This document shows, one piece after another, positions 8,675 through 20,122 of a stretch of 20,855 bases of DNA. The notes under the pieces are model-generated. The model was given only the letters and a program-made list of their open reading frames with translations, did no database searches and was not told where the DNA came from. Each line of letters starts with the position of its first letter. Positions within the stretch are counted from its first letter, which is position 1. This DNA is from a virus. The stretch is from IMG/VR virus record IMGVR_UViG_3300020459_000086, positions 1 to 20,855 of that record. One strand, 5' to 3'. A program made the translations under genes and the position numbers.

Positions 8675-8830
8675 TTGAAATTTAAAATTATAGGAACAAA
8701 AAAAATAGATGATAAAGAGCCGGGCGAAATAATAGATCTCCAAGATTTAGACCAAATATTAACCCTTACCCAAGCCGGCCATATAGAAAAGATTAAAAAA
8801 GTTAAAAAGATTAAAAAGGAAAATAAATAA
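8675..8830 (+). CDS. Small connector-region protein with Lys-rich tail (TTG start)
   Basis: 51 residues from TTG 8675, 1 nt after the previous stop, with AAAAGGA at 8661-8667 as ribosome site. The TAA shares its last base with the ATG of the tail gene (TAATG). The core (PGEIIDLQDLDQILTLTQAGHIEKI) resembles a family of very small phage proteins with 'GDxVDL.xxxAxxLxxxGxxE' found among head-tail genes. The C-terminus is a run of lysines and isoleucine/valine (KIKKVKKIKKENK). The coupling at both ends and the ribosome site make it credible although it has no ATG. Its role is unknown. Confidence 0.65.
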   Translation: MKFKIIGTKKIDDKEPGEIIDLQDLDQILTLTQAGHIEKIKKVKKIKKENK

Positions 8831-9555
8831 TGGCTAAGTATGTATTTACAGACGGTAAAGTTTTTTTAGACGGTTATGATTTAAGCTCAAACATTAACGC
8901 GGTAACTTTAGATATTACCGCCGATGAAGTTGAAGTAACAACTTTACAAAGCGGGGGATTTAAAGAAAGATTAGGCGGTCTTAAAGACAGTACAATCTCT
9001 ATGGACGGTTTTTTTGAAAGCGGGGCTAATAAACCCGACGCTTTACTAGGGGCTAGCGTTGGAAACGAAATAATTACGACGATCGTCCCGGACGCCGGCG
9101 TAGGCAATATTGCTTACTTTTTAAAATCTAAATTATTTAGTTATAACATTTTTGGAGCCGTTGGCGAAGTAGCGCCATTTAATATTAGTAAAAGTCAAAG
9201 TAGCGACATAGTTGTAAGGGGTACTATTGCTATAGACGGTAGTATTACGGCTAGCGGAAATACTAGCGGGGCGCAACTGGGTGCCGTATCATCGACCCAA
9301 AACGTTTATGCCGTTGTACATTGTTACGGCGTAAGCGGAACTAGTACCCCTACTATTACTTTTAAATTACAATCGGACGATAATAGCGGATTTACTAGCC
9401 CTACAGATAGAGCAACCTTTACAGATATAACCGCAATAGCTAGCGAAATTAAAAAAGTAAGCGGGGCAATTACCGACGATTATTGGCGTTTAAATTATAC
9501 CGTTACCGGTACTAATCCAAGTTTTGATATTCACGCAACAATAGGCATAGGATAA
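8830..9555 (+). CDS. Tail tube-type protein, long paralog with C-terminal extra domain
   Basis: 241 residues. Residues 1-130 align with the 135-residue protein at 10966 (MAK[YF]V, DLSxxxxxVTLDITADEVE, FKxRLGGLKDxTxSxD, PDAG). These features belong to major tail proteins of siphophages. Residues about 135-241 form an extra beta-rich domain (QLGAVSSTQNVYAVVHCYG, KLQSDDNSGFTSPTDRATF, ITDDYWRLNYTVTG) of a type often attached to phage tail-tube or decoration proteins. The codons for residues 26-36 are almost identical to those of the shorter paralog. It could be the real tube protein with the short form as a minor component, or the reverse. It ends 10 nt before a cassette promoter region with a different gene content. 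A palindrome is at 9078-9087. Confidence 0.8.
   Translation: MAKYVFTDGKVFLDGYDLSSNINAVTLDITADEVEVTTLQSGGFKERLGGLKDSTISMDGFFESGANKPDALLGASVGNEIITTIVPDAGVGNIAYFLKSKLFSYNIFGAVGEVAPFNISKSQSSDIVVRGTIAIDGSITASGNTSGAQLGAVSSTQNVYAVVHCYGVSGTSTPTITFKLQSDDNSGFTSPTDRATFTDITAIASEIKKVSGAITDDYWRLNYTVTGTNPSFDIHATIGIG
9078..9087. repeat. Palindrome GACGATCGTC, copy 3 (coding, other frame)
   Basis: Exact copy in the long tail-tube paralog, read in a different frame as Thr-Ile-Val, so the conservation is of DNA and not of protein. Confidence 0.85.
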
Positions 9556-9732
9556 GCGAGAAAATAGGCCATTGTGCGCCCGTGTGCGCCGTTTGTTTTT
9601 AAGGCCTTAACAAGTTACCGTAACTAAAAAAAAGTACGTTTTTTTTAGAAAATCCAAGAAAAACCTTACAAAACCTAGCTTTTGCTTATATAATGTACCT
9701 ATATAAACAATTACTTAGGGAGGTAATACAAA
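9556..9732 (+). promoter_or_regulatory. Promoter/operator region of the accessory cassette
   Basis: 177 nt without a gene. An 8-bp direct repeat TGTGCGCC occurs at 9573-9580 and 9583-9590, one helical turn apart. TTAAGGCCTTAA (9599-9610) is a perfect palindrome. GTTAC-C-GTAAC (9614-9624) is an inverted repeat. CTAAAAAAAA (9624-9633) and TTTTTTTTAG (9639-9648) form a perfect 10-bp inverted repeat with a 5-nt loop. The promoter itself follows. The density of symmetric sites suggests binding of one or more regulators; none is identified. Confidence 0.6.
9666..9694 (+). promoter_or_regulatory. Sigma70-like promoter for the cassette
   Basis: A perfect -10 box TATAAT lies at 9689-9694, 17 bp after a weak -35 box TTACAA (9666-9671). 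Transcription would start near 9701, leaving a 30-nt leader with the strong ribosome site AGGGAGG (9717-9723) before ATG 9733. It is the best canonical promoter in the window. Confidence 0.7.
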
Positions 9733-10056
9733 ATGGAAGAGCAATTACAAATACTAGAAATGTTAATAGTTAATTGTAATAAAGCCGTAAGCGATTTTAT
9801 GGCTAGTACAAAAAAACAAGATAAAGTTGAAAGCGCAAGTAGGGTTAGGGAGTACCAAAACTTATTTTGCGAATTAGCTAACAAACAATTAGGGGTTGAA
9901 GTTGTAGATGATAGTTTTAACTTTTTATTTAATGAAGTTGGTATAAATGATTTTGAATTTTATACCGCTATAGATTATTTAAGCCAAGTTGAGCAAAAAG
10001 AAAGACAAAAACAACAAGCTAAAGATTACGCTAAATGGTGTAAGGAAAATTTATAA
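9733..10056 (+). CDS. Cassette protein 1, unknown function
   Basis: 107 residues with the strongest ribosome site in the window (AGGGAGG about 9 nt before ATG). The protein is mainly helical: an N-terminal helix (EEQLQILEMLIVNCNKAVSDFM), a second helix (RVREYQNLFCELANKQLG), an acidic/aromatic middle (VVDDSFNFLFNEVGINDFEFYTAIDYL) and a charged C-terminal helix rich in Lys/Gln. There is no signal peptide, membrane segment or recognised motif. It is the first gene of a four-gene unit with its own promoter, inserted between two tail genes. Small size and composition recall early or host-takeover genes rather than virion proteins; that is inference. Confidence 0.75.
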   Translation: MEEQLQILEMLIVNCNKAVSDFMASTKKQDKVESASRVREYQNLFCELANKQLGVEVVDDSFNFLFNEVGINDFEFYTAIDYLSQVEQKERQKQQAKDYAKWCKENL

Positions 10057-10256
10057 TGGATTTTCTAAACGCAACAGAAACTAAGTTAGTTAGGTATATC
10101 GTAAAAAATACGAGCGTACTAGCTAACTTAGATGAAGTAGATACAAACGTAATTTTAACCGCCGGTAATTTAGCTAAGGTAGATACCGATACTATAAGTA
10201 CCGTTAAGGTTAGGGTTGCTTTAATGCAAGTTAAAAAAAACTTAGGGGGTAAGTAA
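10056..10256 (+). CDS. Cassette protein 2, unknown function
   Basis: 66 residues; the ATG overlaps the previous stop (TAATG) and its own TAA overlaps the next ATG, so it is translationally coupled on both sides. Sequence: an N-terminal helix (LNATETKLVRYIVKN), then SVLANLDEVDTNVILTAGNL and a basic C-terminal helix (TVKVRVALMQVKKNLGGK). This could be a small helix-turn-helix-like or protein-binding domain, but no known motif is clear. I do not recognise a family. Confidence 0.65.
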   Translation: MDFLNATETKLVRYIVKNTSVLANLDEVDTNVILTAGNLAKVDTDTISTVKVRVALMQVKKNLGGK

Positions 10257-10600
10257 TGAACGTATTTAATGATATTGCAAAATTAATGGATAATACAACT
10301 ACGGTTTATGAAGTAAAAGTAACTACGGAATTTATCGTAGAAGTATCGGCCGATAATCCAACTAAAGCAAAAGAAAAGATAGATAACTATTTAAACGGTA
10401 AATATGAAACCGACGGAGATCGTGATAAAGACGCTTACAACGATTGGTTACATTTTATAAACCCGGACGAACTATTAGAAAAAAAAGATAGCTATAAAAT
10501 CTTTAGGCCTAAATATATAACAAAAGGAGATAAAAGTAGGGTTATGTATAAACGCGAACAACAATTAGAAAAGGAAAGGGAAGATAATGGCTTTAAGTAG
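10256..10600 (+). CDS. Cassette protein 3, unknown function
   Basis: 114 residues. The segment TVYEVKVTTEFIVEVSADNPTKAKEKIDNYL resembles the small alpha/beta unit found in many phage proteins in which 'Y.V.V...f.VeV.A.n..eA...a.' forms two strands and a helix. The rest is strongly charged (ETDGDRDKDAYNDWLHF, MYKREQQLEKEREDNGFK). It overlaps the next gene by 14 nt. A GGAGATCGTG site is at 10415-10424. Cytoplasmic and soluble; function unknown. Confidence 0.65.
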   Translation: MNVFNDIAKLMDNTTTVYEVKVTTEFIVEVSADNPTKAKEKIDNYLNGKYETDGDRDKDAYNDWLHFINPDELLEKKDSYKIFRPKYITKGDKSRVMYKREQQLEKEREDNGFK

Positions 10601-10796
10601 AAAATATTATCAATTATTAGCAAAAGAAATAAACGAATTATATTTAGAGGTTGCGTACGTTCCAAACCAAGCGCTAAGCGAACTATTAGATAAATTAATA
10701 AATAATTTAGCTATAAAGTTTAAAGAGGATAACGCAAACTTTAACCACGAGCTATTTTTAAAAGCTTGTTTAAAAGACGTAACTAATACTCCCTAA
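10587..10796 (+). CDS. Cassette protein 4, small conserved phage-type protein
   Basis: 69 residues. The layout 'MALSRKYYQLLAKEI....', a middle helix and a C-terminal 'FKEDNANFNHELFLKACL' matches a widespread family of small phage proteins that end in 'F..DNP.FD...F..AC', usually found among early genes and of unknown function. It starts inside the 3' end of the previous gene, preceded by AAGGAAAGGGA. It ends 18 nt before a strong terminator stem. Presence of an early-type gene in the tail operon supports the view that this is an inserted accessory unit. Confidence 0.7.
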   Translation: MALSRKYYQLLAKEINELYLEVAYVPNQALSELLDKLINNLAIKFKEDNANFNHELFLKACLKDVTNTP

Positions 10797-10813
10797 GTAT
10801 AGGTACGATAAAT

Positions 10814-10846
10814 AAAAACCCGGCGCGCTTAACCGCCGGGTTTTTT
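10814..10846 (+). terminator. Strong rho-independent terminator closing the cassette
   Basis: Left arm 10814-10825 (AAAAACCCGGCG) pairs perfectly with 10834-10845 (CGCCGGGTTTTT) around an 8-nt loop, with a run of six T at 10841-10846. This is a textbook intrinsic terminator and the only one of this strength in the window. It would stop cassette transcription, and also read-through from the upstream structural operon, before the short tail gene. Confidence 0.93.
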
Positions 10847-10855
10847 CTTTCCTTG

Positions 10856-10898
10856 AAATGACGATCTCCGTAAAAAACTGGACGATCGTCATTTTTTT
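10856..10898 (+). terminator. Second hairpin with T-run built from the palindrome half-sites
   Basis: AAATGACGATC (10856-10866) is the perfect reverse complement of GATCGTCATTT (10884-10894); the loop is 17 nt and the right arm merges into seven T (10892-10898). The right arm is also part of the exact palindrome GACGATCGTC at 10881-10890. It may act as a second, weaker terminator or as an operator with two spaced half-sites. The structure is seen; the role is inferred. Confidence 0.5.
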
Positions 10899-10911
10899 AA
10901 TGTCATACTAC
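10881..10911 (+). promoter_or_regulatory. Intergenic palindrome element upstream of the short tail gene
   Basis: GACGATCGTC (10881-10890), then 7 nt, then TAATGT (10898-10903) where the related elements at 15832 and 20099 carry TTTAAT and TATAAT. The 15-mer TTAATGTCATACTAC at 10897-10911 recurs exactly at 15806-15820. A promoter here would restart transcription after the cassette terminator, with a leader reaching the AAGGAG ribosome site at 10954-10959. Promoter function is inferred. Confidence 0.5.
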
Positions 10912-10965: not shown

Positions 10966-11373
10966 TTGGCTAAGTTTGTTTTAACAAACGCTATGGTAAA
11001 AATTAATAGCGTTGATTTAAGTGACCACGTAAGTAGCGTTACTTTAGATATTACGGCCGATGAAGTTGAAGATACTCCGTTCGGTCAAACTTTTAAAAGT
11101 AGATTAGGCGGACTTAAAGACGGTACATTAAGTATAGATTTCCAACAAGACTTTGCTGCAAGCGAAGTGGACGCTACTTTATTTCCGTTATTAGGTACGG
11201 TTACTACTTTTGAAATTAGGCCAGACGCGGGCGCGGTTGCGTCTACCAATCCAAAATATACTGGGTCGGTATTAGTAAACCAGCACCAACCCGTAGCTAA
11301 CGGCGTCGGTGAATTGGCGACTATGAGCGTATCATTTCCAACTTCGGGGACGATTACAAGGGCTACTTCTTAG
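10966..11373 (+). CDS. Tail tube-type protein, short paralog (TTG start)
   Basis: 135 residues from TTG 10966 with AAAAGGAG 7 nt upstream. The whole protein matches the N-terminal domain of the 241-residue protein at 8830: MAKFVLTN, VDLSDHVSSVTLDITADEVE, FKSRLGGLKDGTLSID, RPDAGA, and a beta-rich C-terminus ending in GTITRATS. The pattern is that of siphophage major tail proteins, which polymerise into the tube around the tape measure. It stands directly before the tail-assembly chaperones, the normal site of the major tail protein. It has its own upstream regulatory region, separate from the other tail copy. Confidence 0.8.
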   Translation: MAKFVLTNAMVKINSVDLSDHVSSVTLDITADEVEDTPFGQTFKSRLGGLKDGTLSIDFQQDFAASEVDATLFPLLGTVTTFEIRPDAGAVASTNPKYTGSVLVNQHQPVANGVGELATMSVSFPTSGTITRATS

Positions 11374-14577: not shown

Positions 14578-15809
14578 TGGCGCAACCTACGGTAAGGGTA
14601 CGCTTAGGATTTACGCCCGATACGTTTACTTTAGATGATTTAGTAAGGGGCGTTTTAGATACCGGTAAATTAGGCGGGGCTACTACCTTAACCGATGTAA
14701 CAAGCGACGTACAAAATATAGCTATCAATAGAGGGAGATCCAAAGATTTAGATAGCTTTTTTACTGGTAGCGCGTCGGTTAAATTAAATAATAACGCTCG
14801 TAAATATGAAAATACAAATACAAGTAGCCCTTACTATCCCGGTATAGAGCCGTTTATAATTTTACATATAGACGCAACTACGGACGGCGGTAGTAGTTAC
14901 GAAGACTTATTTGTAGGATTTATAGCCGATATAAATTTAAGTTACCCGGATAATATTAACTCGTTTGCAACCTTTACCGGGTTTGACGCTTTTATGAAAA
15001 TAAACAATACGGAACTTATTAACCAAAGCTTTAGTAGTACCGATAGCGGTACCTTAATAGGTAACGTATTAGATAACGCTAGCGTTAAATTTAGTACGGC
15101 AGATAGAGATATAGAAACGGGGGTTTCTACTATGCAAGCTATAAGCGGTTTGTCAACTAATACCCTTAACTTATTACAAACTATAGAGCGTAGCGAAAAC
15201 GGTTTACTTTTTATAAGTAAAAGCGGTAAGTTAACTTTTAAAAATAGACATACAACTTTTCCAAGTACGGCAACAATTACTTTTAGCGACGACGGTAGTG
15301 ATGTACCTTATACAAGTTTGCAATATATAAACGATGATAGCGAAATTTATAATATTATAAACCTTACGCGTACGGGTGGTACTACCCAAACTAAAGAAGA
15401 TAAAGGGAGCCAATTAAAATATTTAATTAGAACTTTAACGCGTACCGGGTTACTAAACGATAACGATAGCGAAGTTTCTAGTGCTGCTTTATTTTTATTA
15501 GGTAAATTTAAAGACGCTTTGTTAAGGTTTGATACTTTAGAAGTAAACCTAGTAGATTTAAGTACCGCCAACCAAGATAAAATACTAGAAAGCGAAGTAG
15601 GAAATATAGTAAGCGTTGAATTAACACCGCCCGGCGGTGGCTCGCCTGCCCAAATATCCAGCTTAGAAATTTTAGATAGTATAGCTTATAGTATTACGCC
15701 CGATACTTTTAAAGTATCTTATAAATTAAGCAACGCCGACCAGCAAGCTTTTTTAAGATTAGATAATACTTTATTTGGCGTACTAGATACCGATAAGTTG
15801 GGTTATTAA
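14577..15809 (+). CDS. Distal/minor tail protein
   Basis: 410 residues, beginning in a TAATG overlap with the tape measure. It opens with FTPDTFTLDDLVRGVLDTGKLGG and contains segments typical of siphophage minor tail proteins after the tape measure: 'dvqni.i.RGRS..Ld.f..g.asv.lnN..r.y.p', 'FVGFIADINLSYPDN', 'T.fDafm.l', 'TLNLLQTIERSENGLLFI'. The final residues, FGVLDTDKLGY, repeat the N-terminal GVLDTGKLG motif. It probably forms part of the tail-tip hub to which fibres attach. No enzymatic motif is visible. It is the last gene before a regulatory gap. Confidence 0.75.
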   Translation: MAQPTVRVRLGFTPDTFTLDDLVRGVLDTGKLGGATTLTDVTSDVQNIAINRGRSKDLDSFFTGSASVKLNNNARKYENTNTSSPYYPGIEPFIILHIDATTDGGSSYEDLFVGFIADINLSYPDNINSFATFTGFDAFMKINNTELINQSFSSTDSGTLIGNVLDNASVKFSTADRDIETGVSTMQAISGLSTNTLNLLQTIERSENGLLFISKSGKLTFKNRHTTFPSTATITFSDDGSDVPYTSLQYINDDSEIYNIINLTRTGGTTQTKEDKGSQLKYLIRTLTRTGLLNDNDSEVSSAALFLLGKFKDALLRFDTLEVNLVDLSTANQDKILESEVGNIVSVELTPPGGGSPAQISSLEILDSIAYSITPDTFKVSYKLSNADQQAFLRLDNTLFGVLDTDKLGY

Positions 15810-20076: not shown

Positions 20077-20122
20077 ATGTCATATTACGTAAAAAGTTGA
20101 CGATCGTCGTAAAATTATAATT
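20077..20122 (+). promoter_or_regulatory. Palindrome-containing regulatory element before the post-fibre gene
   Basis: ATGTCATATTACGTAAAAA (20077-20095), 3 nt, GACGATCGTC (20099-20108), TAAAAT (20110-20115), TATAAT (20116-20121), one base, ATG 20123. No Shine-Dalgarno sequence. TTGACG at 20097-20102 resembles a -35 box but is only 13 nt from TATAAT. With TAAAAT as -10 box the transcript would start at the ATG. Very similar to 15809-15854. Confidence 0.62.

Follow-up and report, generated by a model that had tools for sequence, protein, structure and literature searches.

Phage morons are extra transcription units that sit between conserved genes of a phage, and they are usually characterised through the genes that they carry. 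The moron gp15 of HK97, which lies in the tail region, encodes a single membrane exclusion protein. In the late region of SPP1, a segment with three moron genes is bracketed by transcription signals (PMC6316719). Pairing of a 3' element with the ribosome entry site of the same mRNA is reported in other settings. In the icaR mRNA of Staphylococcus aureus, a C-rich motif of the 3'UTR pairs with the Shine-Dalgarno (SD) sequence and interferes with translation initiation (PMC3868564). Long-distance anti-SD pairing is likewise reported for the aapA3 and hok mRNAs (PMC6733600), and one of the works which that article cites refers in its title, for hok, to joint changes of both ends across relatives.

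Like phage morons, the cassette analysed here has a promoter and a terminator of its own, a lower G+C content and small genes that are non-structural, and it is present in some relatives and absent from others. It is unlike them in that its contents are swapped inside a kept frame (promoter and leader on one side, tail and terminator on the other) and in that its mRNA ends are complementary. With HK97 gp15 it shares a position among tail genes, but its proteins are several and look soluble. As reported for icaR, a 3' element is predicted to pair with the SD of the same mRNA; icaR, however, is a regulator gene of the host and has a long 3'UTR, whereas the cassette is an accessory operon of a phage, in which the element sits at the last stop codon, immediately 5' of the terminator. 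As in the published accounts of hok and aapA, the full-length mRNA would be closed through a 3' anti-SD, with ends that change jointly; unlike them, the cassette is a multi-gene operon of soluble proteins with no hydrophobic toxin peptide, and the terminating ribosome would abut the element. The ingredients are each known; joined together and kept across an exchangeable slot, they appear to be new. A literature search at the level of paper listings, with most subscription journals outside its reach, showed no description of end-to-end anti-SD pairing for a phage moron.

The DNA studied (the window) is a 20,855-base virus fragment from IMG/VR, and cassette coordinates are given on that record. 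A first-pass annotation had described four small overlapping genes between two tail genes. This observation is confirmed: c1 (9733-10056, 107 aa), c2 (10056-10256, 66 aa), c3 (10256-10600, 114 aa) and c4 (10587-10796, 69 aa) all lie on the + strand, with overlaps of 1, 1 and 14 nt. The flanks can be specified further, both being tail-tube paralogs: MTP1, the major tail protein (8830-9555, +; phrog_9522, E 5.6e-44), on the left, and MTP2 (10966-11373, +; phrog_4574, E 2.9e-35) on the right. MTP1 has an extra C-terminal domain that matches phrog_427.

The candidate promoter, CTTACA-18-TATAAT (9665-9694, +), had been called canonical. By its consensus alone it is at chance level (a consensus scan found 6 promoter-like sites, against 7.5 expected in shuffles); what holds is the conservation, as TATAAT or TATACT followed by the same leader is found in relatives. 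The ribosome site, GGGAGG at 9718-9723, is as strong as claimed and belongs to a predicted leader hairpin, ATTAC-TTAGGGAG-GTAAT (9710-9727, +), with the same sequence in the relative L002. At the other end, and as a correction to the annotation, the c4 stop codon falls within a functional-looking 3' element, a predicted hairpin (10778-10807, +; same sequence in L002) with an anti-SD in and beside its loop. The terminator proposed earlier is borne out by a 12-pair stem with 7 G-C pairs at 10814-10845, within an intrinsic terminator at 10814-10848 (+). The cassette, which on these predicted signals has its own promoter and terminator, stops there; a second inverted repeat (10857-10893, unstranded) with the palindrome GACGATCGTC at 10881, and a late-type motif, ATGTCATACTAC (10900-10911, +), occupy 10857-10911 ahead of MTP2. 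Its G+C content is 31.5%, against 37.1% in the rest of the record. Between the window and L002, the four ORFs are under purifying selection (dN/dS 0.40, 0.14, 0.27 and 0.45 for c1 to c4) and evolve faster than the flanking structural genes (0.056-0.074, n = 5).

To place the locus among relatives, a scan with MTP1 yielded 191 sequences, of which the best 80 were kept; both MTP genes are present in 72 of the 80 and in the window (n = 73). The gap between MTP1 and MTP2 is only 56-63 bp in 38 of the 73 loci, while in the other 35 it measures 264-1518 bp and has varied content, with no + strand ORF of at least 35 aa in four of them (L006-L009). The same genes are therefore not present in all relatives, and the moron layout proposed in the annotation, for which such a comparison had been suggested, is supported: the site is an exchangeable moron slot. 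We found 24 protein families in it, in combinatorial arrangements (c2 and c4 families together, the c2 family with other genes, the c3 family with others, or none of these). Among the relatives compared, c1 is present in the window and L002 only. The c2 family is the commonest in cassettes (FAM0), and all nine of its matching loci are in the MTP1-MTP2 slot, on contigs already in the set. The c3 family was found at eight loci; in L203 and L204 it again lies between MTP1 and MTP2, and in a distant phage, L202, a c3 relative lies between two head-tail genes. Similarly FAM2, first met in the slots, is also present at the head-tail junction of a distant phage group (L209-L213). These genes are accessory and mobile. 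No match was obtained when the 'phages' collection was searched with slot DNA and with MTP1. A second cassette architecture, with an extended -10 (TGTGGTATAAT or similar) and one or two genes, was seen in the sister phages L041, L063, L182, L203 and L204; no terminator was seen in it, and an inverted repeat like CCAC..GTGG overlaps the promoter in several.

The soluble, non-structural look attributed to the four proteins agrees with our searches. A hydropathy scan predicted no membrane span (highest 19-residue means 0.53-0.96), and c1 to c4 gave no match above cut-off, structural families included, in Pfam, PHROGs or NCBIfam; ten further cassette proteins had none above cut-off in Pfam. A weak, under-cut-off match of c1 (0.0078) to the RIG-I C-terminal domain was dropped. 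The three-helix model of c4 (pLDDT 79) has no PDB match with E of at most 0.001 (best 1.7), and the c3 model (pLDDT 55.8) was too poor for a structure search. The annotation had likened c4 to a widespread early-gene family. In part this stands, as unrelated phages (L143, L144) have c4 relatives within arrays of small genes; the mycobacteriophage matches, all hypothetical proteins, reach only E = 0.4. A WhiB-looking ORF was recognised by eye near the c4 relative of L144. For the candidate roles named in the annotation (exclusion of other phages, counter-defence, host takeover), the family searches gave c1 to c4 no match above cut-off. The likeliest class for c1 to c4 would be small early proteins that act on the host or on host defences.

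Side-by-side reading of the gaps brought out a feature absent from the annotation: the two transcript ends complement each other. In the window, the SD leader of c1 (9712-9722, +) is predicted to pair with 10789-10799 (+), at the last stop codon before the terminator. There were 33 distinct gaps of at least 100 bp, and the 26 with a terminator and genes were counted (L041, L035, L061, L063, L147, L064 and L162 were left out because no terminator was found, they were truncated or they lacked cassette genes; the terminator of L074 was placed by hand). With G-U pairs allowed, 22 of the 26 distinct cassettes have the leader core in reverse complement in their tail, three (L131, L163, L036) pair with one bulge and one (L150) does not pair; as the leader cores were taken from the same data, these counts are a description and not a blind test. 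The window and L002 have the same leader core and agree letter for letter from the end of c4 into the terminator, while sequence close by differs. A scan for the pattern in DNA returned 30 stretches, four of which (L165, L166, L167, L171) were discarded as chance matches in unrelated sequences. In Rfam there was no match at the gathering score, and sub-threshold matches were almost all on the terminator hairpins.

Leaders and tails fall into four haplotypes, ACTTAGGGAG/CTCCCTAAGT, ACTTGGGAG/CTCCCAAGT, ACTAGGGAG/CTCCCTAGT and AAACGGAG/CTCCGTTT, which track related phages, so that the independent joint changes number about three. In a pairing matrix, every leader type pairs best with its own tail and every tail with its own leader. 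Two of the differences amount to the loss of a complete base pair, and one is a wholly different sequence (L074). The 3' element is thus complementary to the SD of its own transcript and conserved with joint change of both ends. In 23 of 26 cassettes, no 58-nt stretch of the body pairs as well as the own tail, and in 21 of 26 at most 5 of 500 dinucleotide shuffles equal it. The pairing of L074 is moderate (-11.9 kcal/mol, with a body minimum of -12.7 and 18 of 500 shuffles as good); L150, L131, L163 and L036 are the other weak or failing cases, joined by L002 for the shuffles. As a control, the leaders of SD-bearing ORFs, the cassette's included, were paired with random downstream 58-mers in four genomes: the cassette value was reached in 1/35, 0/70, 0/90 and 2/55 cases, the single case in the window equalling the cassette's own value and possibly being its own tail. 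Where the genes are gone, the pairing is gone too. In L162, which has lost genes and leader, the tail keeps its terminator without an anti-SD, and L147 has a terminator-like hairpin with no ORF, SD or anti-SD; leader and anti-SD are lost together, as a partnership predicts.

Folding predictions agree with this pairing. In the unconstrained fold of the 1,148-nt window transcript, leader and tail pair with a probability of 0.88-0.95 over the core, and GGGAG is occluded. For the 26 full transcripts (314-1224 nt, with the start assumed 28 nt before the start codon), the probability of pairing between SD and tail was 0.88-1.00 in 25 and 0.03 in L150; once the tail was removed, total SD pairing was 0.15-0.76. 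In a non-redundant set (clustering at 90% identity), 19 of 20 are predicted to close. In 21 of 25 cassettes, the distance between the anti-SD and the last annotated stop codon is -8 to +10 nt (with the ORF ends of L030, L160, L170 and L004 taken from separate ORF listings). Going by the general footprint of a ribosome, the element should thus lie under one that is finishing the last gene, and the distances of 75 nt in L168 and L178 and 28 nt in L177 and L023 are a misfit with such gating.

Taking together slot variability, end complementarity, joint change and joint loss of the two halves, and predicted closure, we consider it probable that this is a moron operon of early type, the finished mRNA of which folds end to end and thereby keeps ribosomes from entering. 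The slot would be a transcription boundary between the two tail-tube genes, and the cassette an exchangeable accessory operon set there. Its build would be of the early type, with its own promoter and terminator, small genes that are coupled in translation, and a leader that relatives also use in their early units. We infer that transcription starts just ahead of the leader and that the leader would stay open during RNA synthesis, or as long as ribosomes finishing the last gene sit over the anti-SD, which lies at the last stop codon just 5' of the terminator. Once the RNA is complete and the ribosomes have left, the ends would pair in the cell, entry on the first gene would be blocked, and the remaining genes would be silenced through coupling. 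A late mRNA that reads through the cassette would be locked likewise, which, if the lock works, would explain how foreign gene sets can reside in a late operon without mistimed production. The conserved part of the cassette is the frame, promoter and leader plus tail and terminator, with matching RNA ends, and the genes in between vary; if the lock works, matching leader and tail would also be a marker for accessory cassettes in environmental phages. The sister-lineage cassettes (L041/L043, L063, L182, L203, L204) run into MTP2, with no hairpin terminator and no long anti-SD seen, and a lock is thus dispensable for a moron at this slot.

Other explanations fit part of these data. The complementarity and folding would look the same if the cassette were an ordinary moron in which the closed ends affect mRNA stability only, by nuclease protection or as an RNase III site, and the icaR pairing is indeed reported to make an RNase III substrate as well (PMC3868564). 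Yet the paired half is centred on the SD and not elsewhere in the leader, and the pairing half is lost in gene-less slots; we therefore regard control of stability without control of translation as unlikely. A role at the DNA level, with the inverted pair as recombination sites for swapping or inverting gene sets, is suggested by the way the halves bracket variable genes and by their arm-spacer-arm symmetry, seen by eye in both. However, cassette genes are readable in the + direction in the distinct filled gaps inspected (for which only + ORFs were listed), a recombinase was not noticed, the 5' half falls on an SD at normal spacing, and some partners pair through G-U, as only RNA would (L029, L030, L177, L023), all of which makes recombination sites very improbable. 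Since each half can also fold locally, the two could be independent regulatory hairpins, complementary by descent or chance, but this sits badly with the haplotype-matched changes, the joint loss and the preference for end-to-end pairing in full-length folding, and we give it hardly any weight. By the tests made, the cassette is not a type I toxin-antitoxin system, as the hydropathy maxima show no hydrophobic peptide in c1 to c4; for an antisense RNA, the minus-strand promoter-like sites of the consensus scan were at chance level only.

Action in trans is the remaining alternative. The core of the cassette leader also precedes genes of the early region, as haplotype A in G002 and G014 and as haplotype B in G008 and G016; the sole leader-like match in G017 and one of the two in G016 were set aside as chance occurrences within coding sequence, with no promoter. 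The released 3'UTR might act as a small RNA and, through the shared leader, switch off early mRNAs of its own phage. Of 14 SD-bearing leaders, the G002 tail pairs best with that of an early unit (-23.4), ahead of its own leader (-19.7), so that a trans effect is possible, and the corresponding early unit of G014 gives the same -23.4; the early leaders of G008 reach -15.9 and -17.0 with the cassette tail, and in both G002 and G008 they share the haplotype of the tail. On the other hand, in the window, G008 and G010 the tail has its best target, out of the ATG-started ORFs, in its own leader; the early region of the window phage lies outside the record, and shared leaders may just reflect copying of early units. 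Such a small RNA seems improbable to us. A combined version, in which the 3' end is a phage-wide riboregulator that closes its own mRNA and also pairs in trans with the shared early leader, is doubtful; if true, completion of the accessory transcript, or late read-through, would turn off early translation, and the leader/anti-leader haplotypes would be phage-specific address tags.

Beyond these readings and the self-closing mRNA that we favour, the early units hold some further observations. A zinc-ribbon-like early gene of G008 and a cassette gene of L181 share 100% identity over 58 residues; this small protein, common to an early operon (L152:8554-8739) and the L181 tail cassette, has a weak, below-cut-off likeness to Lar restriction alleviation proteins (E 0.011). 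In G004 (L148, around 8575), CCTAAGTAA lies in a hairpin that immediately precedes a terminator; it is complementary to part of the early leader about 150 bp further on, and the two may form a second leader/anti-leader pair.

A collection of bacterial and archaeal genomes yielded one relative, with 75% identity in MTP1; it is a contig of 29.7 kb from AG-919-G14, a single-cell genome of 'Candidatus Actinomarina'. A 29-kb viral sequence from this cell is reported among the first bona fide phages of that order (PMC7771536). In addition, G008 carries a WhiB gene (PF02467, E 3.5e-10). From the AG-919-G14 relative and this WhiB gene, we infer that the host of the window phage is 'Candidatus Actinomarina', which would link the accessory slots to an abundant, uncultured group of marine actinobacterial hosts.

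Several other sequence features accompany the cassette. The motif ATGTCATAYTAC is intergenic in the late region (10900, 15809 and 20077; ATGTCATACTAC of 10900 recurs at 15809 and, as ATGTCATATTAC, at 20077), has an A+T-rich box some 20-40 nt downstream and is kept in relatives. It is possibly a late promoter or a regulator site; a late promoter at 10900 would account for transcription of MTP2 beyond the cassette terminator. The 10-bp GATC-centred palindrome GACGATCGTC occurs seven times in the window (221, 2082, 9078, 10881, 13557, 15832 and 20099; 0.008 expected), with some copies intergenic and others within genes. It differs by phage, TCTGATCAGA being present 13 times in G007 (the contig of L149 and L150) and GCTGATCAGC or TTTGATCAAA three times in others. 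By their distribution, these palindromes look like dispersed operators (stoperators) or partition sites, with a recognition that differs between phages. Finally, a gene of the N6/N4 DNA methylase family (PF01555, E 1.6e-08) lies at 237-869 of the window, upstream of the terminase.
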